Source: an uncultured Fodinibius sp. (lineage in GTDB: Bacteria; Bacteroidota; Rhodothermia; Balneolales; Balneolaceae). Taken from it: 64,000 bases of DNA. The translations under genes and the position numbers were made by a program. Shown here one piece after another: positions 1 to 12,063 of the stretch. The DNA is taken from NCBI GenBank assembly GCA_913056455.1, contig CAJXMJ010000003.1:1-64000 (forward strand). Reading direction: 5' to 3'. Below the pieces are notes generated by a model that saw only the letters and a list, made by a program, of their open reading frames with translations, had not been told where the DNA came from and did no database searches. The first letter of the stretch is position 1. The number at the start of each line of letters is the position of its first letter.

Positions 1-339
1 GAAAAACGTGGGGGCTATCAGTTTTCTGGTCAGGATGTATACCTAAATATAGCGGGGGGATTAAAAGTGAACGATCCGGCTGCTGATTTAGGAGTAACCC
101 TGGCATTAGTATCAAGCTTTTTGGATAAGCCGATTTCTAATAAAGTAGCATTTTTAGGAGAAGTGGGGCTGGGAGGAGAAGTGCGGACGGTGAATAAAAT
201 TGATCACCGTCTTACCGAGATCAACAAGCTTGGATTTGGTCATGCTATCATTCCAAAATCAAATGCGGTGCAAGATAGCAAAGACCTGAAAACAAGTGGT
301 GTAGCAGATATTTCATCAGCGATAAAAAAAGCCCTTTAG
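1..339 (+). CDS. radA: DNA repair protein RadA (Sms), 3' part only
   Basis: The window opens inside this gene; 112 codons are visible. They form the Lon-protease-like C-terminal domain of RadA, recognisable from GGLKVNDPAADLGV, SSFLDKPI, the GEVGLGGEVR block and KLGFGHAIIP. RadA is a RecA-like ATPase that drives branch migration during homologous recombination. Its zinc finger and ATPase core must lie before the window. The reading frame is open from base 1, so the first ATG-like start inside the window is not the real start. It is the last clearly housekeeping gene before the defense island. Confidence 0.9.
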   Translation, partial: EKRGGYQFSGQDVYLNIAGGLKVNDPAADLGVTLALVSSFLDKPISNKVAFLGEVGLGGEVRTVNKIDHRLTEINKLGFGHAIIPKSNAVQDSKDLKTSGVADISSAIKKAL

Positions 340-357
340 CTTGAACTAAAGAGCTTT
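331..357 (+). terminator. possible radA terminator
   Basis: CTTTAG at 334-339 pairs with CTAAAG at 346-351 and is followed by a short T stretch. It overlaps the radA stop codon. The stem is short, so this is a weak call. Confidence 0.35.
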
Positions 358-466
358 TCAAAAATCGTAAAAATATTGTTAATACTGGTTTCGCTTCCGT
401 CTGCGCTGTTCACGGATGTTTTTCTTCAATGCCTGACGACATTGATACCGATTCCCAATAGCGATT

Positions 467-679
467 TTGAACAATATCCAAGAGTTTGATCTTGTGCTGG
501 GCGGGGGTTTTGTCTCTGGTTCTTTTGTAGGTACTGGTACAAGCTTGCTTGCTGCAATGTCATCAGGCAGAAATAGTATAGGCTATGAGATTGAAAAAAG
601 TTTTGCACCTATTATCCAAAATACGCTGACATCAGATGCGAGTCTTGAAATAATAAATAATGCTGTTCGTACTTGGTGA
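467..679 (+). pseudogene. C-terminal stump of a DNA methyltransferase
   Basis: About 65 codons match the end of a beta-class N4-cytosine/N6-adenine methyltransferase: the AdoMet-binding motif I core FVGTGTSLLAA followed by GRNSIGYEIEKSF. The catalytic DPPY-type motif and all upstream parts are missing. Similarity starts near 510 and the preceding bases do not look like methyltransferase coding sequence, so the 5' part was deleted. It converges on the restriction endonuclease gene with about 27 bp between the stops, as expected for a former methyltransferase-endonuclease pair. The fragment cannot methylate DNA. Confidence 0.7.
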
Positions 680-706
680 GCAAACTCTTTTCATGGAAGC
701 CGTGGA

Positions 707-1291
707 TTAGAAATCAAATTGTATCGTTATTCCACCTTTTTTCTTTTCGTAGTAAATAATATCAGCATTTATTGATTCTGATAAACTGCCTTTTGACTTA
801 TATGTTGTAGGTTTTATACTCACTGGCTCCCCATTGATATAGCCATCGATACCTTTACTCTCATCACTTTTATTAGCAAGCTGATAAGTTGTGTTTTTCA
901 TGTCAGCCACTTTTTTTAAAATAGCTTCTTGAAAACGTAGTCCGGCAAAAGTTTTGTAAAGTACTAAGTCCTCAACCCATGTTTCAATCATTTCACGGTC
1001 AATCTTTGACATAGCCTTCTTCATTTTATTGACCATTTTCTCAATTTTATCACTTGCTTTTTTACGGGCTTTAGGGTGCTTTTTCTCATACCAATTTTTC
1101 CACTCTTCAAATGTCCTACCGTCAAACTCTTGGATTAAATCGCTCATTTGCCCTACAACCTTGGGGCGTGTACCCTGAGCATTTTGGTTGGCTATATTTA
1201 TAAGTTGCGTAGTGTATTTTGGAAAGTCAGGAGATTCACCAATTACAGTTTCTTTAATTTCGTCATTGTAAATTTTTACTTTTTTACTCAT
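707..1291 (-). CDS. type II restriction endonuclease, MjaI-family-like
   Basis: A 194-residue protein. The N-terminal block FPKYTTQLINIANQNAQGTR followed by PKVVGQMSDLI matches what I remember of the MjaI endonuclease family; its prototype cuts CTAG. Near the C-terminus GIDGYI, then SIKPTTYKSKG, fits a PD-(D/E)XK-type nuclease core with Asp and Lys in place. The start overlaps the stop of the upstream controller gene by 4 nt, so the two are translationally coupled. The partner methyltransferase is only a stump, so either the nuclease is inactive, its sites are protected by another enzyme, or it is silent. The family name is from memory and should be searched. Confidence 0.65.
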   Translation of the reverse strand: MSKKVKIYNDEIKETVIGESPDFPKYTTQLINIANQNAQGTRPKVVGQMSDLIQEFDGRTFEEWKNWYEKKHPKARKKASDKIEKMVNKMKKAMSKIDREMIETWVEDLVLYKTFAGLRFQEAILKKVADMKNTTYQLANKSDESKGIDGYINGEPVSIKPTTYKSKGSLSESINADIIYYEKKKGGITIQFDF

Positions 1292-1497
1292 AAGTCCTTG
1301 AATAATCTACTTAACGAAATCCCAAAGCCTTTAGCAATTTTTTCTAAATTGACAAGAGATACGTTTCTTTTACCAAGTTCTATACTTGCTATATAGGTCC
1401 TATCTAAGCCACAGAGATGTGCGAACTCTTCTTGACTTAAATCCCGATCATGCCGAAGCTCTCGGATTCTATTTCCTATTTTAGTTTTAATATCCAT
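1288..1497 (-). CDS. restriction-modification controller protein (XRE family)
   Basis: A 69-residue single-domain helix-turn-helix protein: IRELRHDRDLSQEEFAHLCG, then the recognition helix DRTYIASIELGKRNVSL and the closing LEKIAKGFGISLSRLF. Size, domain layout and position directly before an endonuclease gene are typical of C proteins, which delay endonuclease expression until methylation is complete. A C-box-like site lies 40 bp upstream. The gene ends in a 4-nt overlap with the endonuclease start. Confidence 0.8.
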   Translation of the reverse strand: MDIKTKIGNRIRELRHDRDLSQEEFAHLCGLDRTYIASIELGKRNVSLVNLEKIAKGFGISLSRLFKDL

Positions 1498-1536
1498 TAG
1501 ATTTACAATAGCATAATTGTTGGCGATACGTCAACG

Positions 1537-1547
1537 GACTATGAGTC
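1537..1547. promoter_or_regulatory. C-box operator
   Basis: GACT ATG AGTC matches the GACT-N3-AGTC half-site pair bound by C proteins of type II systems. It lies 40 bp before the controller start. Just downstream on the minus strand is TTGACG and, 18 bases later, TATTGT, a plausible promoter that the C protein could switch on or off. Confidence 0.6.
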
Positions 1548-1693
1548 ACATTTCAAATTAGTTCTCTTGAAATATTACAGAGTTAGGCACAAGAAATTTA
1601 CCTTGAAAAAATAACAACAAAACTAATCGACCTTTGAAATAATGGATAAGTGACTTCTGGATCTTTAGCAGCATAGTTTTCCTATGCATGTAG

Positions 1694-2086
1694 GCTGCAT
1701 TCTCGAATAAAAAGTATATGGACCTGTATATACGTCCCGGTTCCAGCCGGGAGAAAAGGGAAGAGGTAATTGAAGAGTTTTATCGGAAGGAGTTAAAGAA
1801 TCAGATCCCGTCGCTGATTGATAAGTGGGAGCAAAAAATGGAAATAAAGGATTGACAATTCCTCCAAATGAAGACCAAATGGGGGTCGCGCATTACGGAG
1901 GATCAAAAGGTCATCCTCAATCTTGAGCTGGTCAAAAAGTTGACCGAGTGTCTGGAATATGTAATTGTCCATGAGATGGTGCACTTAGAAGAACGTTTGC
2001 ATAACGAGCGATTTAAGAAGCTGCTGGATAAATATATGCCCTCCTGGAGAGCACGACGCGAGCAGTTAAGTGAGCTGGTTTTTTGA
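1694..2086 (+). pseudogene. YgjP/DUF45-type M48-like metallopeptidase, truncated and with an in-frame stop
   Basis: One reading frame carries LYIRPGSSREKREEVIEEFY from 1724, then MEIKD, a TGA stop at 1853-1855, then QFLQMKTKWGSR and the zinc motif HEMVHLEERLHNERF, ending at 2086. That order matches the second half of YgjP-like metallopeptidases. The stop is in frame, with no frameshift, and sits where relatives often have Trp (TGG to TGA). The N-terminal half is missing: a TAG closes the frame at 1691. The usual GSC near the zinc site reads GSR. Such peptidases are often found beside restriction genes. Confidence 0.7.
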
Positions 2087-2247
2087 ATGTATGAGGAGAT
2101 AATTTAATGGCAGAAATTGTGAATACAGGTTCAAGATTATATTGTAGCATAAATAGTGTTTAGAGCTCGTAGCAAGTATATTGATGGTCGTGATGCTCGC
2201 AAAATCTTGATATGTCTTGACTGTTTTAGGGGTAAGAGGAAGTAACA

Positions 2248-2478
2248 TTACTCTCCTTTATGACCAATAAAACAGACTGTCCCATCAACTTTTGAAACGG
2301 AAAGGAATTTCGATGATCCAACCCTTGGTTCATCGAGCAGTGAAAAACTGATTAATATTTCATTATTGGGATTAGACCGGTATATCCTACTTGGGGGGGA
2401 TTATTCGGAATGTACTTCCAATTCAATGTTATTACTCAAGAATTTTCTGGCAAGTTTTAAGGCTTCTTTTTCATTCAT
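2248..2478 (-). pseudogene. small unknown gene interrupted by one TAA
   Basis: Reading from ATG at 2478, the frame gives MNEKEALKLARKFLSNNIEL then EVHSE, a TAA at 2401-2403, and continues in the same frame to 2248 with ILISFSLLDEPRVGSSKFLS and VDGTVCFIGHKGE. The regular protein-like composition on both sides of the stop suggests a 76-codon gene broken by a single substitution. The fold is not recognised; a small immunity-type protein is one guess without direct support. Confidence 0.45.
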
Positions 2479-2550
2479 GGAATTTATATTATTGTTTCCT
2501 TCTTGAGGATAAATAAGATTCAAAGTTTAAGCAATAATCATGTATTCCTG

Positions 2551-3417
2551 ATGAATAGGTTTTTTACCCCCATAAAAAAATATAGCTATATATTAATTGG
2601 ACTCACTTTTTTAATAGCAACATTCTTTTTACCTAATCCTGCAAATGCTCAGTCAGACTTTTCGAAATCACAGAGGGTAACTGTGATTGATAGTATGGAA
2701 GTACCTGCGAACTTAAGTAGAATGCAGGTGGAAGACGATCTTCTGAAGCAGGCGCGAAAACGAGCGGTTGAGCAGGTTACAGGGGTAAGAGTTAATGTAG
2801 CAAATGTGAGTATTGCTACAGAAAGTGGAAACGATGTGTTTGAATCATATCAAGAACTGGTTCGAAATTCGGTTTCAGGACGTATAATTCAGGAAAGTGA
2901 ACCAAAATTCTCGTGGGGGAGTAGCCAGGTCCTTTATATACACTACTCTGCTACCGTTGCCAAAGAAACTGAATCTCGGGATCAATATTTTGATGTGGAG
3001 ATGGAAATAAACAAGCCTGTATTTACTGTAGGTGGAGAAATGCAGTTAACAGTTGAACTATCAAAAGATGCTTACATAACCATCTTTTCCATAACAGAGG
3101 GTGGCAAGGTAAGTGTTCTTTTCCCAAATGCATATATGACAGAAAATTTTGTAGATGGTAGTACTCAGCGCATTATCCCGAATGATAAAGAGAAAGATAA
3201 ATTATCATTCACTCTTCAGTCTCAATCAGACAATCCTAAGTCGAAATATGCCGAACTATTGTTGTGTATAGCGACTAAGGAAAAAGTATCATATGATAAG
3301 CTTCAAACTGATATGAAGTACAATTCTAACTGGCTCGAGCTTAACCGGTGGTTAATGAAAATTCCAAGAGATCATTGGGCTCAATCTTACGTCTCCTATC
3401 AGGTATTTCCAAAGTAG
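2551..3417 (+). CDS. secreted DUF4384-domain protein
   Basis: 288 residues from ATG 2551; an upstream TTG at 2503 would add 16 residues before the signal peptide and is less likely. Residues 1-33 are a signal peptide (KKYSYILIGLTFLIATFF, then NANAQ-like cleavage). The next part, LLKQARKRAVEQVTGVRVN and NSVSGRII, resembles the N-terminal domain of FlgT/LPP20-type proteins. The C-terminal half, with VGGEMQLTVELSKDAYITIF and KVSVLFPNAY, is a DUF4384 domain. DUF4384 often occurs with caspase-like or kinase proteins, and here a caspase-domain protein starts 137 bp downstream in the same direction. The exact role is unknown. Confidence 0.75.
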   Translation: MNRFFTPIKKYSYILIGLTFLIATFFLPNPANAQSDFSKSQRVTVIDSMEVPANLSRMQVEDDLLKQARKRAVEQVTGVRVNVANVSIATESGNDVFESYQELVRNSVSGRIIQESEPKFSWGSSQVLYIHYSATVAKETESRDQYFDVEMEINKPVFTVGGEMQLTVELSKDAYITIFSITEGGKVSVLFPNAYMTENFVDGSTQRIIPNDKEKDKLSFTLQSQSDNPKSKYAELLLCIATKEKVSYDKLQTDMKYNSNWLELNRWLMKIPRDHWAQSYVSYQVFPK

Positions 3418-3554
3418 GCCAATGCGATTACAGATAAGAATAGGGAATCATAAAATGACCAAGTGAAAGGTTATTGCTAAAAAAAATACAATTAATGATT
3501 CTTAGCATCATAATTATTAGATTCTTTATTTATAAATAAATAAACATCTTAAAT

Positions 3555-6134
3555 ATGGTTTTGGGGAATAAAGCTACTCTTGTAAGAATAATAAAGTCAT
3601 GTGTGATTGCGTATTTTATCTTTTCTACTTCACCAGCTAATTCGCAAAATATTTATGAATTAGATCAACAAAATGATCTCAATGATGTTCATATTACCAA
3701 TGAAAATATTTCTTGGATGGTTGGAAGGGATGGAACAGTATTAAAGATTAATAAATCAAGTGAGCCTACAAGGATAGACTTAAAAACCAATAAGTGGTTG
3801 AAAAGTATATATTTTACTAATGCTAATGAAGGTTGGATTGTTGGGAGTGACGGAGTAGTCTACCATACAAAAGACAAAGGGGACACATGGACTAAACAAG
3901 AGTCCAATGTTGAAAAATCTCTACGTGGAGTTTATTTCTTTGGAAGTCAACATGGATGGATTGTTGGAAATGATGGCTTGATTTTATCTACAAGTAATGG
4001 AGGTAAGGACTGGAAAAAACGATATTTCAACGAAAGTATAATTCTCGAAAGTGTTTATGCTCTTGATTCAAAAAATGTATGGATTGTAGGAAATAAAGGA
4101 ACAGTTATTAATACATTTGATGGCGGTGAAACCTGGAACAAAATCAAGTACACAGGTAATTGGTTAAGATCAATTTATTTCGTTGATAATCAGCATGGAT
4201 GGATAGTTGGACAAAATGGTACAATTCTAAAAACTGATGATGGGGGTAAAACGTGGGATAAACAGGTAAGTGGAACAAAAAAATGGTTAAATGACGTTTT
4301 CTTTGTGTCGAAAAATGAAGGGTGGTGTGTTGGAGATAATGGTCTAATTCTGGAAACTAATAATGGTGGAAGTACCTGGATACCAAAAGAAAGCAACACG
4401 TCCAATTTTCTCAGAGGTATATACTATAAAGAATCTGGAATTGTGGTCGGGGAAGCGTCGATGGCATTTAATTTTTCTAAAGATGAATTAAAATATTTTG
4501 TCCCTTCTAATGACAAGAAATTAAGCGAAAAAAAATTATCGAGACCTCCTGATATAAAAGTGTCAGATCCAATTTACAGAGATTCAAATGGAGATAATCG
4601 ATTAGAAGGAAAGGAAAATGCCACGATTACTTTTGTCCTTTCTAATGAAGGAGAAGGACCAGCAAAGAATATTCAAATTAGTGGAAATACTAACTCTGCC
4701 ATTGAGGGGTTAAAAGCACAAGTCGGAAATATAAAACCTGGTGAAAAACGTAGTATTTCTCTCACCTTAAGGGGGGAGAAGCATATACAGGATGGTGAGG
4801 CTGAAATAACATTTAATTTTACAGAAGCGAGTGGGTTTGAACCAGCTCCTATTCGATTAACTATTCCTACTCTTGCCTATCGACCTCCAAATTTGAAAAT
4901 TACAGACGTAGCCGCTGAAGACGACCAGGGACGAGGTATTATTAAGCCGGGTATTGTTGTTAATATTACAGTAAGAGTTCAAAATAAAGGCGTCGGTACG
5001 GCTGAAAATGTCAAAGTTAGTCTACGTGCTGGAGATAACATTTTTATTGGTGGAAAAGAACGAGGAACATACTCAGAAACTATTGGAAAACTTGAGTCTG
5101 GAGACTGGCATGACATTTCGTTTGAAGCTTTTAGTAATAACCGAGCGGAAAGTTTTGCTATCAATGCGACCGTTGAGGAATCGAATGGTAAATATGGAGT
5201 TGCTGATCAAAGCCTTGGCCTTGAAATGGATGAGCAACAATTAACTATGCGTGAATTAGAAATAAAGGGTCAAGAAATTGAAGAAAATAGAAATCGTGAA
5301 GCTCCTTCCCTAAAGGTTGATATTGAAAATAATATCCCAAAAACTAATGACATAAATAGTGATGCCATTGCTGTTATCATTGGCAATCAAAACTATCGTG
5401 GGGATACTCCCGATGTAGCTTATGCCCTCCGTGATGTTTCTATGATGCGTGAGTATTTACAAACAACTTTCGGATTTAAGCCTGGAAACATTTTGTATTA
5501 TGAAAATGCCTCCTTGGGCGATATGAGAACATTATTTGGAACAGAATCAGGACCGGGTAGGATTCAGGATTTAGTCCATGATGGAGAAAGTGATGTATTT
5601 GTATTCTACTCTGGTCATGGGGCACCAAGTACTGATGACGGTACTGGTTATTTGATGCCCGTTGATGGCAATACCAATAATTTAGATGCAACAGGATATA
5701 AATTGGACTTGTTATATGAAAATCTTTCAAAAATTAATTCCAACTCTACAACCGTAGTAATTGATGCTTGTTTTTCTGGTGCTTCCGGGTCGGGTGAAAT
5801 GTTAATAAACAAAGCTTCACCGATTGGCATAAAAGTAAATAATCCTGCCGAAAATTTAGGGGATGATGTTGTGGTTGTGGCTGCAGCAAGTGGAAGTCAG
5901 ATAGCCAGTTGGTATACGGAAAAACGTTATGGGTTACTAACCTACTTTTTTCTAAAAGGAGTAAAAGGAAATGCAGATCTAAATGGAGATAAAAAAATTA
6001 CAGTTGGAGAACTACGAAAATATTTAACGGATTCCTCTGATGGGTTACCTTATAAGGCACGAGCTCTCTACGGTAGAGAACAAATCCCTCAGGTGTTTGG
6101 AAATGATAATAAGGTTGTTTTAGAATTGGATTGA
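3555..6134 (+). CDS. exported beta-propeller / CARDB-like / caspase-family protein
   Basis: 859 residues. A signal peptide (about 1-30) is followed by 6-7 repeats of about 42 residues, each with a W-I-V-G-x-x-G core and an xT-x-DGGxTW turn, as in Ycf48/BNR propellers (about 35-310). Two Ig-like CARDB-type domains follow (about 325-410 and 430-540), then a short charged helix. The C-terminus (about 595-859) is a caspase/metacaspase p20-type domain: AVIIGNQNYRG, catalytic His688 in YSGHG and Cys739 in DACFSG, both intact. The likely activity is a cysteine protease with Arg/Lys or Asp specificity, not determinable here. Probably exported, acting with the DUF4384 protein upstream. Confidence 0.85.
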   Translation: MVLGNKATLVRIIKSCVIAYFIFSTSPANSQNIYELDQQNDLNDVHITNENISWMVGRDGTVLKINKSSEPTRIDLKTNKWLKSIYFTNANEGWIVGSDGVVYHTKDKGDTWTKQESNVEKSLRGVYFFGSQHGWIVGNDGLILSTSNGGKDWKKRYFNESIILESVYALDSKNVWIVGNKGTVINTFDGGETWNKIKYTGNWLRSIYFVDNQHGWIVGQNGTILKTDDGGKTWDKQVSGTKKWLNDVFFVSKNEGWCVGDNGLILETNNGGSTWIPKESNTSNFLRGIYYKESGIVVGEASMAFNFSKDELKYFVPSNDKKLSEKKLSRPPDIKVSDPIYRDSNGDNRLEGKENATITFVLSNEGEGPAKNIQISGNTNSAIEGLKAQVGNIKPGEKRSISLTLRGEKHIQDGEAEITFNFTEASGFEPAPIRLTIPTLAYRPPNLKITDVAAEDDQGRGIIKPGIVVNITVRVQNKGVGTAENVKVSLRAGDNIFIGGKERGTYSETIGKLESGDWHDISFEAFSNNRAESFAINATVEESNGKYGVADQSLGLEMDEQQLTMRELEIKGQEIEENRNREAPSLKVDIENNIPKTNDINSDAIAVIIGNQNYRGDTPDVAYALRDVSMMREYLQTTFGFKPGNILYYENASLGDMRTLFGTESGPGRIQDLVHDGESDVFVFYSGHGAPSTDDGTGYLMPVDGNTNNLDATGYKLDLLYENLSKINSNSTTVVIDACFSGASGSGEMLINKASPIGIKVNNPAENLGDDVVVVAAASGSQIASWYTEKRYGLLTYFFLKGVKGNADLNGDKKITVGELRKYLTDSSDGLPYKARALYGREQIPQVFGNDNKVVLELD

Positions 6135-6184
6135 AAATACGAAGTAAATTATTTGCTTATGAAAATATCAAGAGAGTTACATTG

Positions 6185-6207
6185 AGCCTGCCTGGGAGGA
6201 GCAGGCT
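6185..6207 (+). terminator. rho-independent terminator after the caspase gene
   Basis: AGCCTGC at 6185-6191 pairs with GCAGGCT at 6201-6207, followed by a T-rich run. Confidence 0.7.
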
Positions 6208-6315
6208 TTTTCTATTGTTTTCTTATACTCAGTATATGGTATCTCGATAGTTATCTTTACTTTATTATATTCTGTTTTAAAAAAAATCATTTACATCCCC
6301 AATCAGTTGGCTTTA

Positions 6316-6546
6316 ATGCAATTAGAGAAGAAATCACTGCGAGAAACAATCAACAAGGCTTTTCTCAAGGAGACGGTGAACCGATCTACGGTTAATTATT
6401 TTAAGTCGAAACTGGGACAGCTACTGGCTAATATAGAGTTGGCGGAGAAGAAAGTGGAATATGAGGAGGAGATAAATCAGTTGATCAATGATTTGTATAA
6501 AATAAATCCTGAAGAGATGTCTATCATCGAGGAAGTTGTAGATTAA
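6316..6546 (+). pseudogene. small remnant resembling the two ends of a type IIG restriction enzyme
   Basis: 76 codons from ATG 6316; a TTG at 6307 is the alternative start. The first part (KKSLRETINKAFLKETVNRS, YFKSKLGQLLANIE) resembles the N-terminal segment of large Bacteroidota type IIG/Eco57I-like enzymes. The last 28 residues (EEEINQLINDLYKINPEEMS) resemble their C-terminal tail, where the motif reads like IN-x-LVYxLYGLTxEE. Nothing of the nuclease, methyltransferase or specificity core lies between. It may be an internally deleted enzyme that stayed in frame, or a genuine small protein. It precedes the HEPN gene by only 16 bp. Confidence 0.45.
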
Positions 6547-6562
6547 CTAATTCGTTATCGAT

Positions 6563-7924
6563 ATGAATCTATCCTTCAATTCTGATTTTACAATTAAAGG
6601 AGAGTTTTGGAGACCAGAAGCTCCTGAAAACATTGTGAATGGTAGGATTGAATATGGCTCCGACAATGAAATTAAACTGATTCTATATGGTCAGTTCTCA
6701 GGGTCTTTGGATGAAGTGAGTATAATTAACGGGACAAAAAATGGTGGGCAAGATTTAACACTGATAAATAATTTAGTTAAAAATGCTCAGGGTGGATTGG
6801 AAAAATTCACCGAAGTGACCTATTCCTGTGAATATATTTTTTATGGCAATTTATATGAAAGAGAAGAAGATATAAAGTTTGATATAATCTCATTTAGTTA
6901 TACAAATCTGGATGAATGGTTTAATCATGACTGCTTTAATTACGACGGTATATTAACGGATGATTGGAGAGTCTCGATTAGTCATTTGCCTTCTAAAGAG
7001 ATTGAGATACAAAGTGAGAAGTTTACACTTGAAACATCTTCTTCATTTAAATTAGGAACTTCTCTTGGTACTCATGTAGAAATTGACTTCTCTACTTTTT
7101 GGATTTTAAAATCTGATCAAAAGCTATCCATTGCTTATCTGGTAGACTGCATTAAACTTATACAAAATTTTTTGACTCTTTGTGTAGATACCGCCTGTTC
7201 TACCCAGTTTATTAATGCACAGAGCTTGGAAGAGGATAGGGGCTCAATACAGATTGTTAGGTCAAGAAGCTTTGATAATGACTACCAGAAAAAGATGCAC
7301 CATGATATGGTAATCACCTACCAAGATATTGAGGATAGGATAGACTTAGTGCTAAATAACTTATTTGATCTAAAAAATAGTTTTGAATCAATTGTTAATC
7401 TATTCACAGCTAATTATTACAAATCAGATACGTATCAAGAGATACGTTTTTTGAATTTAACTCAGGCCTTTGAAGCATATTTCAGGTTAACTAAAGATAC
7501 TTTATATATATCAAAGGATAGGTATGAGGAGCTTACTGATAAACTAATGAGTTGCTACCCATCAGAGAGTAATCATGCCTTAAAACAAAAGATTAATAGT
7601 ACAATCAAATATGCGAATGAATACTCATTAAGGAAGAAGCTAAAAGTCTTTATAGGTTCTTTTGAGTCCAAAACCTTGGAGTACTTCGGGATTGAAGCTT
7701 CAACATTTGTTGACACTACTGTTTCGAATCGAAATTACTATACCCATTACGACAAAGACCTTAAAGAAGATGCCCTGAAAGGAGTAGAACTATTGAAAAG
7801 GGAAATCAAGCTAAAATATCTTCTTTTGATATATCTTTTTAAAGATTTAGGATGCAGTGAAGAGCTGGTTTTGAATGGTATTAAAGAAAGTGGACATGCA
7901 AGCTTCTTCATTCAAAAGGCATAA
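6563..7924 (+). CDS. ApeA-like HEPN-domain anti-phage protein
   Basis: 453 residues. The N-terminal half (NSDFTIKGEFWRPEAPENIV, then a beta-rich region) fits the ApeA N-terminal domain. The C-terminal third is helical with a HEPN RNase motif, Arg390-x4-His395 in SNRNYYTHYDKD. HEPN proteins of this type cut RNA on phage infection and stop growth of the infected cell. The active-site pair is intact. The gene starts a compact run with mcrB (27 bp) and mcrC, so its product may be an abortive backup to the McrBC nuclease. Family assignment is from architecture and motif, not a search. Confidence 0.75.
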   Translation: MNLSFNSDFTIKGEFWRPEAPENIVNGRIEYGSDNEIKLILYGQFSGSLDEVSIINGTKNGGQDLTLINNLVKNAQGGLEKFTEVTYSCEYIFYGNLYEREEDIKFDIISFSYTNLDEWFNHDCFNYDGILTDDWRVSISHLPSKEIEIQSEKFTLETSSSFKLGTSLGTHVEIDFSTFWILKSDQKLSIAYLVDCIKLIQNFLTLCVDTACSTQFINAQSLEEDRGSIQIVRSRSFDNDYQKKMHHDMVITYQDIEDRIDLVLNNLFDLKNSFESIVNLFTANYYKSDTYQEIRFLNLTQAFEAYFRLTKDTLYISKDRYEELTDKLMSCYPSESNHALKQKINSTIKYANEYSLRKKLKVFIGSFESKTLEYFGIEASTFVDTTVSNRNYYTHYDKDLKEDALKGVELLKREIKLKYLLLIYLFKDLGCSEELVLNGIKESGHASFFIQKA

Positions 7925-7951
7925 AAGTTCTAATACAGAAGACCCATAATT

Positions 7952-10561
7952 ATGGAAAAACAATTTGAATATCTCGTAAAGCTGGCCAAGAAATATCAAA
8001 CCTATGAGGAGGATGACCAGGCATTATTTGATGCTTTGCAAAGTCTGGATCGAGATAAGCTAAACAGTATTTATGAGGAATATGGTGATCCTAATTTGGG
8101 GTATGAGCCCGTCAACATGCTTCGCGCCGAGGTTGCAGGAAAATTGTTAAATGGTGATGAGTTCAATCCAGAGACTGTTGAAATAATAAAAGGAAGCATT
8201 ATTGATAAAAAAACGAGGGAACTTGAGTATTTGCCCCAAGAGCAGTTGGATACGATCGAATCTTCCACTAAAAAAACAGATGCTTTTTCAAACTGGAAAA
8301 GATATTGGTCTTTATTTCATACCTTTTTTTATCGAGATGCTGTAAAAGAAACAGTGCGTCAATATTTAAAACAGATCAGTAATGATTTAATTATAGAATT
8401 AGATTTACCTGATTACAAAGTCCATTTTGTAGATTTTAACGGTGTCAGAAATTTGGGTAGAGATTTTTGCTGGTTAGCATTGTATCCCGCAAGTAAAGAA
8501 TCACACAAAGAAGCCTACCAATTTTTTATCAGGTTCAGCAGTGAGCCCAAGGCTGGATTAATGGCTGGTAGGACCTTAAAAGATTCATTAGATGAGGGTC
8601 AGCCAGAAGAAAAATTGGAAAATGTATCGTCTTATGCAGGAATAGTAGAGATACATCGTGAGTTAAAAGAAGAGATATTACAGCGTAATCAAGGTCCTCG
8701 TAATTATTTTAAATTTAGTCCAGGATCTCAGGCCATAGATTGGGATTGGTTTAAAGAAGAAGAAAGGATTGGGGTGGGATATAAGGATCTTGGAATGGGG
8801 GATATTTCCGATGCCAAGAGCAGGCAGGAACTCAACGAAAAGGCTGGGCTACCCACTGATAGTGAATCCAATCAAACTTGGAATACTTGGTTGTTTAAAA
8901 CGGCTAAAATAGGGGATGTTGTATTTGCCAATCAGGGTGTAAATAAAGTATTAGGGATTGGTATTATTACCGGTGAATATGAATATCATGAAGGGGATAA
9001 ATATCCCCATCAACGCAAGATGAAATGGCTTACGACTAAAGTTTATGAGTATAAGTCAGAAACCTATCAGAACTATACCAATCTGTTCCGGCCAGACACA
9101 TTCAGTCCAACTAAAACGTGGCAGTTCATTTTTAATGAGTATGTGCGTCTCTATCCTGAGTTGTCAGAAGTTTTTGATAAGCATGACTTGGACTATAGTA
9201 CAGTTGATGCTACGACCCAAGACATAGATTCTGAAATTGATGAGCAAACAGAGACTAATTATTGGTGGCTAAATGCCAATCCATCTATATGGAGCCTTAG
9301 CGATCAGAAAGTGGGAGACCGGCAAACTTATACGTCTCGTAACGAGAAGGGAAATAAACGAAGGATCTATAAGTATTTTGAGTCGGTCCAGCCTGGGGAT
9401 TTAATAATTGGATATGAGAGCAGCCCTTCAAAGCAGATTCGGGCTATCATGCAGATTACCGAAGAGCTGCATCAATCCGAAGATGAAGGGGAAGTTATTG
9501 AGTTTGAGGTTATTGAAAAACTTGAAGTACCGGTAAGCTGGAATGAGTTAAAGAGTGATCCCAGCCTCAAAGACTGTGAGGTGTTTATCAACAATCAGGG
9601 CAGCCTTTTTTCCCTGACCGAAGAGGAGTATGATATTATTCGGGCAACGATTGATCAAAAGAATATATCCGAAGAGCGAAAGTTGGAAAGCAGTACCCGG
9701 AAGCCGTACGATTTTGATGAAGATCCAGATAAACCCTTTTTGTCCAGAAGTAAGTTTGATGAGATTATCTCAATCCTACAACGCAAGAAGAACATTATCT
9801 TGCAGGGGCCTCCCGGAGTGGGTAAAACGTTTATCGCTCGGAAACTGGCTTATCAAATTATGGGATATGAAAACGATTCCCAGATTGAGGTTGTACAGTT
9901 TCATCAATCTTATAGCTATGAAGATTTTATCCAGGGACTCCGCATAACCGAAAGTGGTACGAATCTTCGCAATGGCATCTTTTATGAGTTTTGCCAAAAA
10001 GCACATACCCACAAAGAACGGGATTTCTTCATTATCATTGATGAGATTAATCGGGGTAATTTGAGTAAGATTTTTGGTGAGCTACTGATGCTTATTGAAG
10101 CTGATAAAAGAGATCCTAAATTTGCCACTAAGCTTACTTATGCTGAAGATGAAGAAGATACCTTCTACGTTCCCCCCAACCTGCACCTCATAGGGACCAT
10201 GAATACCGCGGACCGTTCGCTATCTATTATTGATTATGCTCTACGCCGCCGTTTTGCTTTCATAAGCTTAGAACCAAAATTTGAAGACAATTTTTTGGCT
10301 TTCCTTGATAGTCAGGGTATTTCCCAATCATTGAGCGGCCATATCCAGTCATCCATTAAAAAAGTAAATAAGGTTATTAAACAAGATCTGAATGAGGGAT
10401 TTCGGATCGGTCATAGTTACTTTTGTACATTCGAAAACAATCAAAGTGAGGATAAGTGGTATCAGGAAACCATTGAGTATGAGATTAAACCCTTACTTGA
10501 AGAGATCTGGTTTGATAACTCCGATCAGGTAAAAAAGATGTATGAAAAACTAAGCCGCTAA
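7952..10561 (+). CDS. mcrB: McrB-type AAA+ GTPase with EVE-like reader domains
   Basis: 869 residues. The last 270 form an McrB AAA+ motor: Walker A GPPGVGKT at 619-626, Walker B FIIIDEINRGNLSKIFGEL, and the McrB signature MNTADRSLSIIDYALRRRFA. The middle has two candidate modified-base readers: FSPGSQAIDWDWF with ARxGDVVF-like features (about 250-370) and an EVE-like domain starting NYWWLNANPSIWSL (about 430-530). The first 230 residues are not recognised. With McrC it should form a type IV restriction complex that recognises modified cytosines, translocates on GTP and triggers cutting. It is longer than the E. coli protein (about 460) because of the extra N-terminal modules. Confidence 0.92.
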   Translation: MEKQFEYLVKLAKKYQTYEEDDQALFDALQSLDRDKLNSIYEEYGDPNLGYEPVNMLRAEVAGKLLNGDEFNPETVEIIKGSIIDKKTRELEYLPQEQLDTIESSTKKTDAFSNWKRYWSLFHTFFYRDAVKETVRQYLKQISNDLIIELDLPDYKVHFVDFNGVRNLGRDFCWLALYPASKESHKEAYQFFIRFSSEPKAGLMAGRTLKDSLDEGQPEEKLENVSSYAGIVEIHRELKEEILQRNQGPRNYFKFSPGSQAIDWDWFKEEERIGVGYKDLGMGDISDAKSRQELNEKAGLPTDSESNQTWNTWLFKTAKIGDVVFANQGVNKVLGIGIITGEYEYHEGDKYPHQRKMKWLTTKVYEYKSETYQNYTNLFRPDTFSPTKTWQFIFNEYVRLYPELSEVFDKHDLDYSTVDATTQDIDSEIDEQTETNYWWLNANPSIWSLSDQKVGDRQTYTSRNEKGNKRRIYKYFESVQPGDLIIGYESSPSKQIRAIMQITEELHQSEDEGEVIEFEVIEKLEVPVSWNELKSDPSLKDCEVFINNQGSLFSLTEEEYDIIRATIDQKNISEERKLESSTRKPYDFDEDPDKPFLSRSKFDEIISILQRKKNIILQGPPGVGKTFIARKLAYQIMGYENDSQIEVVQFHQSYSYEDFIQGLRITESGTNLRNGIFYEFCQKAHTHKERDFFIIIDEINRGNLSKIFGELLMLIEADKRDPKFATKLTYAEDEEDTFYVPPNLHLIGTMNTADRSLSIIDYALRRRFAFISLEPKFEDNFLAFLDSQGISQSLSGHIQSSIKKVNKVIKQDLNEGFRIGHSYFCTFENNQSEDKWYQETIEYEIKPLLEEIWFDNSDQVKKMYEKLSR

Positions 10562-10565
10562 CTAC

Positions 10566-11594
10566 ATGCAGATACCTGTTGAAAACATATATTTTTTGCT
10601 CTGCTATGCCTGGGACAAGCTTGAGGAAAAGGATCGGGTTAATGTTTCTACTGATGGTACAAATGATCTTCTCGAATTACTTTCCCAGGTGTTAATTAAT
10701 GGATCCCGCATTCTTCTGAAGCGCGGGCTGGAACATGATTATGTGGCAGTTACCGAGGAAAATGTTGGGGTAAAAGGAAAATTGGAAGTTAGCAAATCTG
10801 TTAAACAAAATTCCTTCCAACGGCTGCGCGCCGTATGTAGCTATGATGAGTATTCGGCTGATATACTGCATAACCAGATACTTTATACAACCTTATTTAA
10901 GCTGTTGTATGCTGCTGATCTGGATGAAAGGATAAGAGATAATATCCGAAAGGTTCTACGGCGGTTCCCTCGGATCCAGATTTTAGATCTTAGTCCATTT
11001 GTGTTTGACCAAATAAAGATCCACAGGAATAATCGGTTCTATGAGTTTTTACTGAACGTCTGCCAGCTTATCTATGAAAATCAGTTGCCCAACGAAGAAG
11101 AGGGTACCTGGACCTTTTCTGATGTTACCCGTGATGAAAAGAAGATGGCTACGCTATTCGAAAAGTTTGTACTGAACTTCTATAAAGTTGAACATCCTGA
11201 GTGGGATGTCAGCGGAGAGTATATCTATTGGAGCTTCGATTCCGATGATGATACTAACCTGGAGTTCCTCCCAAGAATGGAAACCGACATTACTTTACGG
11301 AAGCCAGATGAAAAGATCATCATAGATACGAAGTATTATCAAGAGACGATGCAAAACAGTTATGAAACTGATAAGGTAAAGTCTGGAAATCTCTATCAAC
11401 TGTATAGCTACTTGATGCATCAAGAGAATGGTACTCCACGTAATTTTAAGACCAAAGGGATGCTATTGTATCCTACGATTTCAGAAGAATATAATCTGAA
11501 GTATCGATATAAAGATCATCCAATTGAGATTCGGACGGTTAATCTCAATCAGCACTGGGAGGGAATCAAGGAGCGGTTGATGGCTATTATTTAA
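10566..11594 (+). CDS. mcrC: McrC nuclease subunit of type IV restriction
   Basis: 342 residues, starting 4 bp after the mcrB stop. The opening IPVENIYFLLCYAWDKLEE and KGKLEVSKSVK are typical of McrC. The C-terminal PD-(D/E)XK nuclease site is intact: Asp241 in METDITL, then Asp254-Thr-Lys256 in IIDTKYY, and NLYQLYSYL as the closing helix. It supplies DNA cleavage to the McrB ring. No terminator is obvious; the attachment-site region follows. Confidence 0.92.
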   Translation: MQIPVENIYFLLCYAWDKLEEKDRVNVSTDGTNDLLELLSQVLINGSRILLKRGLEHDYVAVTEENVGVKGKLEVSKSVKQNSFQRLRAVCSYDEYSADILHNQILYTTLFKLLYAADLDERIRDNIRKVLRRFPRIQILDLSPFVFDQIKIHRNNRFYEFLLNVCQLIYENQLPNEEEGTWTFSDVTRDEKKMATLFEKFVLNFYKVEHPEWDVSGEYIYWSFDSDDDTNLEFLPRMETDITLRKPDEKIIIDTKYYQETMQNSYETDKVKSGNLYQLYSYLMHQENGTPRNFKTKGMLLYPTISEEYNLKYRYKDHPIEIRTVNLNQHWEGIKERLMAII

Positions 11595-11743
11595 ATAAAC
11601 TTTATCAATTTCAGGCAATCGTGATGACCTTCCATCTGGATCATATAGGAGCTAAATAATAATGATTAGAGGTAGTACACAGTATTATAGGACCCAAGTG
11701 TGACCCAAATCCAAATCTCAACTCATTATTAATCAAAACAAAA

Positions 11744-11784
11744 AAGCCTCTGAATAGGTGTAAGTTGTTGCTATTCAAAGGCTT
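11744..11784 (-). terminator. terminator of the former tRNA-Arg(ACG) gene
   Basis: Read on the minus strand, a 14-base stem (11771-11784 with 11744-11757, one mismatch) is followed by a run of T. It lies just beyond the 3' end of the tRNA fragment, so the native end of that gene was kept. Confidence 0.75.
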
Positions 11785-11793
11785 AGTAGAGAG

Positions 11794-11838
11794 TACGCCT
11801 GAGAGGATTCGAACCCCTAACCTCCTGATCCGTAATCA
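11794..11838 (-). pseudogene. 3' half of tRNA-Arg(ACG), attachment-site scar
   Basis: On the minus strand the sequence carries the anticodon loop TTACGGA (anticodon ACG), the right half of the anticodon stem TCAGG, a variable loop, a full T arm (GGGGTTCGAATCCTC) and the 3' acceptor strand CAGGCGT. The 5' half of the tRNA is absent: bases before the anticodon loop belong to the repeat described next. A break inside the anticodon loop is the usual result of tyrosine-integrase insertion into a tRNA gene. Confidence 0.75.
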
Positions 11839-11940
11839 ATGTGAGATATTGCTGTGCGTGGCACAGGCCGCGATTTTGGGGTTTCATGTAGTACTATTTG
11901 TAGTACCGAAGGGGAACTGGGGGAAATGGTTTCCCGAAAA
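11822..11940. repeat. attachment-site-like repeat, copy A
   Basis: It begins in the tRNA anticodon arm and runs about 119 bp. It contains GATATTGCTGTGCGTG, the direct pair GTAGTAC-TATTT-GTAGTAC and the palindrome GGGAAATGGTTTCCC. A diverged copy in the same orientation is at 26507-26624. Short paired motifs next to a tRNA core look like integrase core and arm sites. No integrase gene is present in the window. Confidence 0.65.
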
Positions 11941-12063
11941 TTATCCTGTGTTTATATGGCTGATTTACATTGCAAACGAATCTATTATTGTAGAAAATAT
12001 GGTAATCCTATCAGAAGTTGTTAGTTCGACAAGGAAGAGTATTCTAATTAAAGCGTATCTATT

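Follow-up and report, generated by a model that had tools for sequence, protein, structure and literature searches.

A DUF4384 protein paired with a propeller-CARDB-caspase protein in an uncultured Fodinibius: a candidate envelope orthocaspase module

The 64,000-nucleotide stretch of DNA analysed here (the window), which is the left end of contig C3 in the 3.28-Mb genome of an uncultured Fodinibius sp. (G000), carries at 2551-6134 a pair of genes that encode a DUF4384 protein and a propeller-CARDB-CARDB-caspase protein. Our reading of this pair, to which sequence comparisons lead us to give about an even chance, is that it would act in the envelope as an orthocaspase module for the processing or turnover of surface proteins that the cell exports. 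Most discussion of bacterial caspases concerns roles in death or defence; caspases with signal-like N-termini that form a widespread subfamily, with a recurring partner and links to secreted giants, would point instead to a cell-surface role other than death, and with a defined DUF4384-caspase pair in hand a substrate can be sought.

Architecture of the two proteins

Both genes sit where a first-pass annotation of this DNA had placed them, on the forward strand and with 137 bases between them. The first (2551-3417) encodes the DUF4384 protein, of 288 aa from an ATG start, the mechanically called open reading frame (ORF) opening at a TTG 48 nt before the ATG of 2551; the second (3555-6134) encodes the caspase protein, of 859 aa. 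A signal-peptide-like segment, judged by eye, opens each of them, and it is from these N-termini that the envelope location put forward in the annotation may be inferred for both proteins. Promoter and terminator counts around the pair are no better than in shuffled sequence.

The description of the second protein as a propeller joined through immunoglobulin (Ig)-like linkers to a His/Cys caspase is borne out by Pfam matches over cut-off and by intact catalytic residues. A seven-bladed Ycf48-like beta-propeller (aa 38-306, 3666-4472; PSII_BNR/Ycf48 124.8 bits, cut-off 27) is followed by two Ig/CARDB-like domains (aa 334-440, 4554-4874, with a DxNxD acidic loop at its start, and aa 447-553, 4893-5213; CARDB 31.6 bits, cut-off 22.7) and by a C-terminal caspase (C14) domain (aa 600-858, 5352-6128; Peptidase_C14 53.9 bits, cut-off 21.4), all read on the forward strand. 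The predicted dyad consists of His688 (codon cat, 5616-5618) and Cys739 (codon tgt, 5769-5771), and an EF-hand-like acidic loop, DLNGDKKITVGEL (aa 808-820, 5976-6014), offers a possible Ca2+ site. An AlphaFold model of the protein resolves four clear modules at a mean predicted local distance difference test score (pLDDT) of 82, with a predicted template-modelling score (pTM) of 0.45 that leaves the placement of the modules relative to each other uncertain.

The residues expected to matter for catalysis and substrate choice are largely conserved in an alignment of 45 caspase rows, which was also used for the tree discussed below (6 of 51 aligned rows were shorter than 200 residues and were excluded, and the caspase of locus L045 is absent from it). 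The His/Cys dyad is intact in 42 of these rows, and of the two acids that we predict to line the S1 pocket, D627 is kept in 44 and D737 in 43, the other two carrying Glu. D627 aligns with an Asp of metacaspase-9, the plant-type enzyme that is the nearest solved sequence to the caspase domain, although the match is weak (expectation value, E, 0.0025), and D737 stands two residues before the Cys; the equivalence of both to Asp95 and Asp211 of TbMCA2, residues named in PMC6426788, is our own placement. Metacaspases are described as taking Arg or Lys at P1, and many as requiring Ca2+ (PMC4357240), which is why a basic specificity and Ca2+ binding may be inferred for the window caspase; given the conserved pocket acids, it is probably Arg/Lys-specific. 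Within the EF-hand-like loop, D808 is kept in 39 rows and E819 in 43. A hydrophobic N-terminus was found, by a crude count, in 42 rows, two of the three exceptions starting near a contig end, and the combination of a signal-like N-terminus with a CARDB-caspase recurs in Nitrospirota, deltaproteobacterial, Spirochaetota, Ignavibacteria/Kryptoniota-like and other lineages.

The propeller belongs to the same sequence family as that of the photosystem II assembly factor Ycf48/HCF136, and it is likewise seven-bladed. It matches the Ycf48 structure 2XBG by phmmer at E 7e-29, and the top four Foldseek rows obtained with the model of the whole protein are Ycf48. Structural re-ranking of the same model places other seven-bladed propellers first (best Z 29.5), and its best 50 rows, which hold only propellers, of many families, do not include Ycf48, so that by fold alone the window propeller is generic. 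It differs from Ycf48 in being fused to a protease and in lacking the Arg patch: at the six patch positions given in PMC10403576 it has no Arg and two Lys in our reading of the alignment. A functional Ycf48 role was rejected for it, the patch that binds D1 being missing. Four matches to the Ycf48 family were found in the host genome at E 1e-5, every one of them within the caspase gene. A propeller is also joined to a caspase in the WD40-caspase fusions, with the difference that their propeller is of another family. Such a second propeller-caspase architecture occurs at loci L046 and L054, whose proteins have signal-like N-termini, N-terminal WD40-type propellers and C-terminal caspases, without a CARDB match by our profile.

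The DUF4384 protein consists of a signal-like N-terminus (aa 1-34), an alpha/beta part (about aa 38-142) and an Ig-like beta-sandwich (about aa 142-288) that holds the Pfam DUF4384 match. Its family assignment in the first-pass annotation stands, at 59.1 bits against a cut-off of 27 and with 15 of 15 family members matching at E up to 1. The FlgT/LPP20-like N-terminus claimed alongside it is so far unsupported: the best that FlgT_N or LPP20 attains is E about 0.03, for each in one of the 15 members, and when profiles were compared with LPP20-type lipoproteins from the neighbourhood the probability came to 1.8%, on which a demonstrated LPP20/FlgT N-terminus was rejected. The model of this protein (pLDDT 71) is poorer than that of the caspase protein, and its second half is the Ig-like sandwich. 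Foldseek gave no match to it at E 0.001 or better; structural re-ranking, which barely probed the N-terminal fold, placed complement domains best (Z 9.4 over 94 residues, root-mean-square deviation 2.0), a likeness that in this model is a common arrangement and is taken as one of fold only.

Linkage of the DUF4384 and caspase families

The association of the two families was surveyed at several taxonomic depths, and the absence of conserved linkage, which the first-pass annotation had named as a refuting result, was not seen; the linkage is strong. Within the genus, the 11 other genomes searched contain no relative of the DUF4384 protein at E 1e-5 and no close caspase, and three of them match, at E 1e-20, the propeller or a degenerate caspase paralogue. 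Among 92 genomes of the family, a close caspase (domain identity 51%) and a close DUF4384 protein (38-39%) occur together, besides the window, only in G022 and G026, where the two genes are divergent, about 0.95 kb apart and separated by two small lipoprotein-like genes. Among 392 genomes of the phylum, a sample assumed identical for both searches, and at our thresholds, the caspase was found in nine, DUF4384 in eight and both in seven. In six of these seven the genes lie less than 1 kb apart with none to two small genes between them, and in the seventh (G331) they are on separate contigs. The hypergeometric probability of this overlap is 1e-12 for all genomes, 8e-8 without the three query genomes and 5e-5 when counted by genus without their genera, figures to be read in the knowledge that genomes are not independent of one another.

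A search of a genome contig collection with the full-length caspase protein confirmed no relative, and an alignment of the caspase domain was used instead. It retrieved 37 loci, in 10 of which, spread over at least four phyla, a DUF4384 gene lies within 3 kb; the linked loci include Desulfobacteraceae, Nitrospirota, Kryptoniota, other Bacteroidota and Magnetovibrio. The figure of 10 is a minimum, many of the contigs breaking off close to the caspase gene. One candidate, a 'DUF4384' gene beside the caspase of L091, was dropped from the tree count, since the gene encodes a TPR protein that the profile had matched weakly (E 4.5e-4). On the tree of 45 caspases 18 are linked to DUF4384, the linkage of L045 being counted among the contig loci and outside the tree; the label requires 10 changes, of which at least 7 are forced by well-supported branches.

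The window pair shares with the orthocaspases a C14 domain, the His/Cys dyad, the two conserved S1 acids and the association with DUF4384, which in Cyanobacteria and Alphaproteobacteria has been published as a fusion (PMC8283722, PMC6426788, PMC7475262) and in the window is an adjacent gene. It differs from them in that the caspase protein begins with a signal-like segment and has its caspase domain at the C-terminus, after two CARDB domains and a Ycf48-like propeller, and in that DUF4384 is a separate protein. A survey of metacaspase operons mentions cell-surface operons, and neither DUF nor CARDB appears in its text (PMC3501461). The adjacent pair, the Ycf48-CARDB-caspase protein and a link to protein secretion of type IX were not recognised in the titles and abstract starts of the open-access papers searched, a scope in which subscription papers are mostly not covered.

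A secreted or periplasmic protease of general use, for nutrition or autolysis, beside which DUF4384 would be incidental, accounts for the signal-like N-terminus and the intact catalytic residues, and it agrees with the 27 of 45 caspase rows that have no DUF4384 gene within 3 kb. Against it speak co-occurrence above chance, the adjacency of the genes, their recurrence in several phyla and an architecture as elaborate as a propeller followed by CARDB domains, and we consider it unlikely.

A possible role at the cell surface

The alternative offered by the first-pass annotation, namely a protease that processes surface proteins, gains support from the neighbours of the Bacteroidota relatives, several of which are giants with the C-terminal tail of the type IX secretion system (T9SS). 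The T9SS type A sorting domain TIGR04183 is present in eight of eight large neighbours (at L040, L045, L087, L088, L089, L091, L092 and L094), which had been chosen for the NCBIfam test after the tail motif was noticed by eye; the giant at L048 runs off the locus and that at L043 is cut by a contig end. Applied to the 588 genes of 49 loci, a profile built from the eight tails picks out these eight genes alone, although divergent tails may be missed. All eight tailed genes share the strand of the module and border it, adjoining the caspase gene at five loci (at L040 with a short opposite-strand ORF between), DUF4384 at L089 and L092 (no caspase was seen at the latter) and, at L091, where no DUF4384 was found, a gene for a protein of about 190 aa. 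The probability of this edge position arising by chance is about 2e-5, reckoned with two edge places among other genes of at least 100 aa at the eight loci. LPP20-type lipoproteins are found in the same clusters at four loci, by Pfam at L040 and by sequence cluster at L045, L060 and L087.

Propellers form a second recurrent neighbour. A separate propeller protein follows the caspase at seven loci (G128, two in G320, L040, L043, L045 and L048), where the genes run DUF4384 (absent from one of the G320 loci), the protein of about 190 aa (for the one tested, Pfam gave no match), caspase and propeller protein, the last being cut by the contig end at L043. Because the propeller is a separate neighbour at these seven loci, the window caspase protein seems to have arisen by the joining of linked genes.

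On these observations the following course of events can be envisaged. The pair would be exported via the Sec pathway, and the caspase domain, probably loaded with Ca2+ in the periplasm or outside the cell, would cut after Arg or Lys, as its S1 acids suggest. The propeller may bind either the client or a partner for docking; both Ig domains together may act as a spacer between propeller and protease. It is of relevance here that the Ycf48 propeller is reported to be able to hold the unfolded C-terminal tail of a client (PMC10403576), although its Arg patch is missing from the window propeller. The DUF4384 protein would be a dedicated partner, whether adaptor, chaperone or regulator.

Several points weigh against this reading. 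Three caspases, all of them Flammeovirga proteins, carry Ser in place of the catalytic Cys, and the 27 rows without a nearby DUF4384 gene, even if many of their contigs end nearby, count here as well. Direct phmmer with the window propeller matches only two giants (E 3e-15 and 7e-13), the remaining giants having been found by an iterated profile in genomes in which propellers are common. The genomes behind the survey loci have from 34 to at least 150 T9SS-tail matches each, and in ten survey loci 6 tail genes were observed against about 4.0 expected from their density; since the count is near that expectation, only the position of the tail genes is unusual, and the 2e-5 given for it is an underestimate, five of the eight loci being relatives. 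The window pair itself has no adjacent T9SS-tailed protein and no T9SS-tail match in either C-terminus (150 aa each, E 0.01), and its host has only 7 tail matches and, in a 96% complete assembly, no PorU match at E 1e-10, whereas PorU is over cut-off in six of six other genomes tested. Since the host is without a PorU match, the T9SS link is not directly transferable to the window, and the client suggested elsewhere may not apply there.

A bolder form of the envelope-module reading draws on PorU, a peptidase of family C25, and on PorZ, with which the window proteins can be likened only by analogy, as things that might work alike. In the T9SS, PorU is described as a sortase, a cysteine peptidase of the cell surface that works on exported proteins together with the propeller protein PorZ (PMC5121618); in the window the peptidase is of type C14, the proteins have no T9SS tail and the host has no PorU match. 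On this proposal the pair would be a second, C14-based system of surface-protein maturation, a PorU/PorZ counterpart in which a giant, once exported, is caught by the propeller for trimming by the caspase at a basic site, and DUF4384 and small lipoproteins serve as an envelope scaffold; in the window lineage, where PorU was not found, the fused propeller-caspase could work alone. We hold this quite improbable, having lowered our estimate slightly because tail density is near expectation.

The low-GC island and the question of defence

The first-pass annotation had set the pair inside a defence island with HEPN and McrBC genes, and domain calls confirm this setting. Positions 1-12000 of the window have a guanine-plus-cytosine (GC) content of 37.0% against 45.3% for the remainder. 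The left edge of the low-GC region, which is also the contig start, is a forward-strand copy of the 3' end of radA (1-443), 443 bp long and 86% identical to the syntenic radA end on contig C7; the right edge is a reverse-strand copy of the 3' end of tRNA-Arg(ACG) (11790-11838), 49 bp, identical, an att-like remnant. Between them lie an MjaI-type restriction endonuclease (707-1291, reverse strand), a short helix-turn-helix (HTH)-like ORF, remnants, the pair, a further remnant, an ApeA-like protein with ApeA N-terminal and HEPN domains (6563-7924; PADLOC PDC-S58), an EVE-AAA McrB-like protein (7952-10561) and a McrC-like protein (10566-11594), the last three on the forward strand. We take the HTH-like ORF to be at 1288-1497 and the remnants to be, from left to right, the tail of a DNA methylase (about 540-660), a YgjP-like one (1718-2086) and an N-terminal piece of a restriction enzyme of Eco57I type (6307-6546). 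From its low GC content, its radA and tRNA-Arg edges and its remnants, the region therefore looks like a mobile and decaying defence island.

Its edges and its endonuclease gene call for some remarks of their own. Within window positions 1-529 the radA 3'-end copy is followed by a short stretch resembling the radA P-loop region and then by the apparent DNA methylase tail, and the copy suggests a rearrangement, or the insertion of an element, at radA. Fragments of the tRNA-Arg(ACG) 3' end are found at 11790-11838 of the window and at C6:6552 and C6:79608, the intact gene being at C3:100369, and they are taken to be att-like remnants of integrated elements. The MjaI gene has no intact methyltransferase adjacent to it, only the methylase-like tail at 540-660, identified by eye.

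Such surroundings invite the view, close to the first alternative of the first-pass annotation, that the pair is an envelope-sensing defence system in which the propeller would detect adsorbing phage or a damaged envelope, a released caspase would kill or block the cell and DUF4384 would restrain it. The position of the pair between the MjaI and the ApeA and McrBC genes, the bounding of the low-GC region by radA and tRNA-Arg fragments and the failure to find the pair elsewhere in the genus (11 other genomes searched) all favour it, as does a relative at L094 that adjoins a CRISPR I-E operon; however, the caspase there is without DUF4384. PADLOC itself gives no match to the window DUF4384 protein at E 0.01 and only a generic one, of 20.2 bits (E 7e-5), to the caspase. 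The caspase has no match in phage records nor, by a pattern scan, in viral contigs; ten plasmid records have a match to it, if a remote one, and none has DUF4384, a Methylobacterium plasmid with a caspase match having no Pfam DUF4384 among its 10 proteins at E 0.001.

The neighbours of the relatives tell in the same direction. The PADLOC and Pfam searches covered 231 of 277 neighbour proteins (without the giants and certain short proteins; the 277 themselves exclude nine loci, comprising the window, near-copies and fragments, and ORFs below 100 aa or with unknown residues), and the PADLOC results are those for the 25 commonest of 71 and the 25 commonest of 99 matching families, so that rarer defence genes may have escaped them. 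Among the matches listed are reverse transcriptases, DUF4143-type ATPases, cyclases and the kinase-like mad2, and, as single matches, a type II methylase, PDC-S19, UzuA and the CRISPR I-E proteins Cas3 and Cas8e; defence genes are thus few among them, and the methylase, PDC-S19 and UzuA singles are not assigned to a locus. The pairs of G022 and G026 have metabolic neighbours, and other relatives lie beside T9SS tails. A defence or death role is accordingly not supported so far, and the finding that the annotation had said would tell against it, a pair mostly outside defence islands, is the one toward which the matches listed lean, the count being incomplete; we judge such a role quite unlikely. 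Under the envelope-module reading, the pair may be merely island cargo, and it is as cargo of a variable defence island that it would have reached the host genome; the locus would then show how non-defence gene pairs may travel within defence islands. Least probable, and in our view very unlikely, is a polymorphic-toxin-like effector, that is, an exported caspase toxin with DUF4384 as its periplasmic immunity protein, for although exported polymorphic toxins are described as using caspases as releasing peptidase or toxin, and propeller repeats as well (PMC3482391), and although the presence of the pair is patchy, the partner is one conserved family across phyla and not a changing immunity set, conservation of the caspase domain extends just as far, and the pair is divergently transcribed in G022 and G026.

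Other caspase genes came to light in the course of the survey. The host genome has a second caspase-like gene on contig C1 (about 951150-952900; L031:6152-7906), which encodes a protein of 584 aa with a lipoprotein-like start, follows an outer-membrane-barrel-like gene and looks like a pseudo-caspase, because GYG and SDID replace GHG and DACF; G015 (L017) has a gene like it, followed by the same neighbour. Four Flammeovirga caspases (L032, L033, L035 and L038), three of them with the Ser for Cys, lie upstream of SecD/SecF-type genes; the two large neighbours at L032 are SecD/SecF-like and without the tail motif. At a few caspase loci there is a possible link to FGE-sulfatase or reverse-transcriptase genes. 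The caspase genes at L041 and L042 lie near reverse-transcriptase genes, and at L042 the sequence preceding the reverse transcriptase resembles, by eye, the target of a diversity-generating retroelement.

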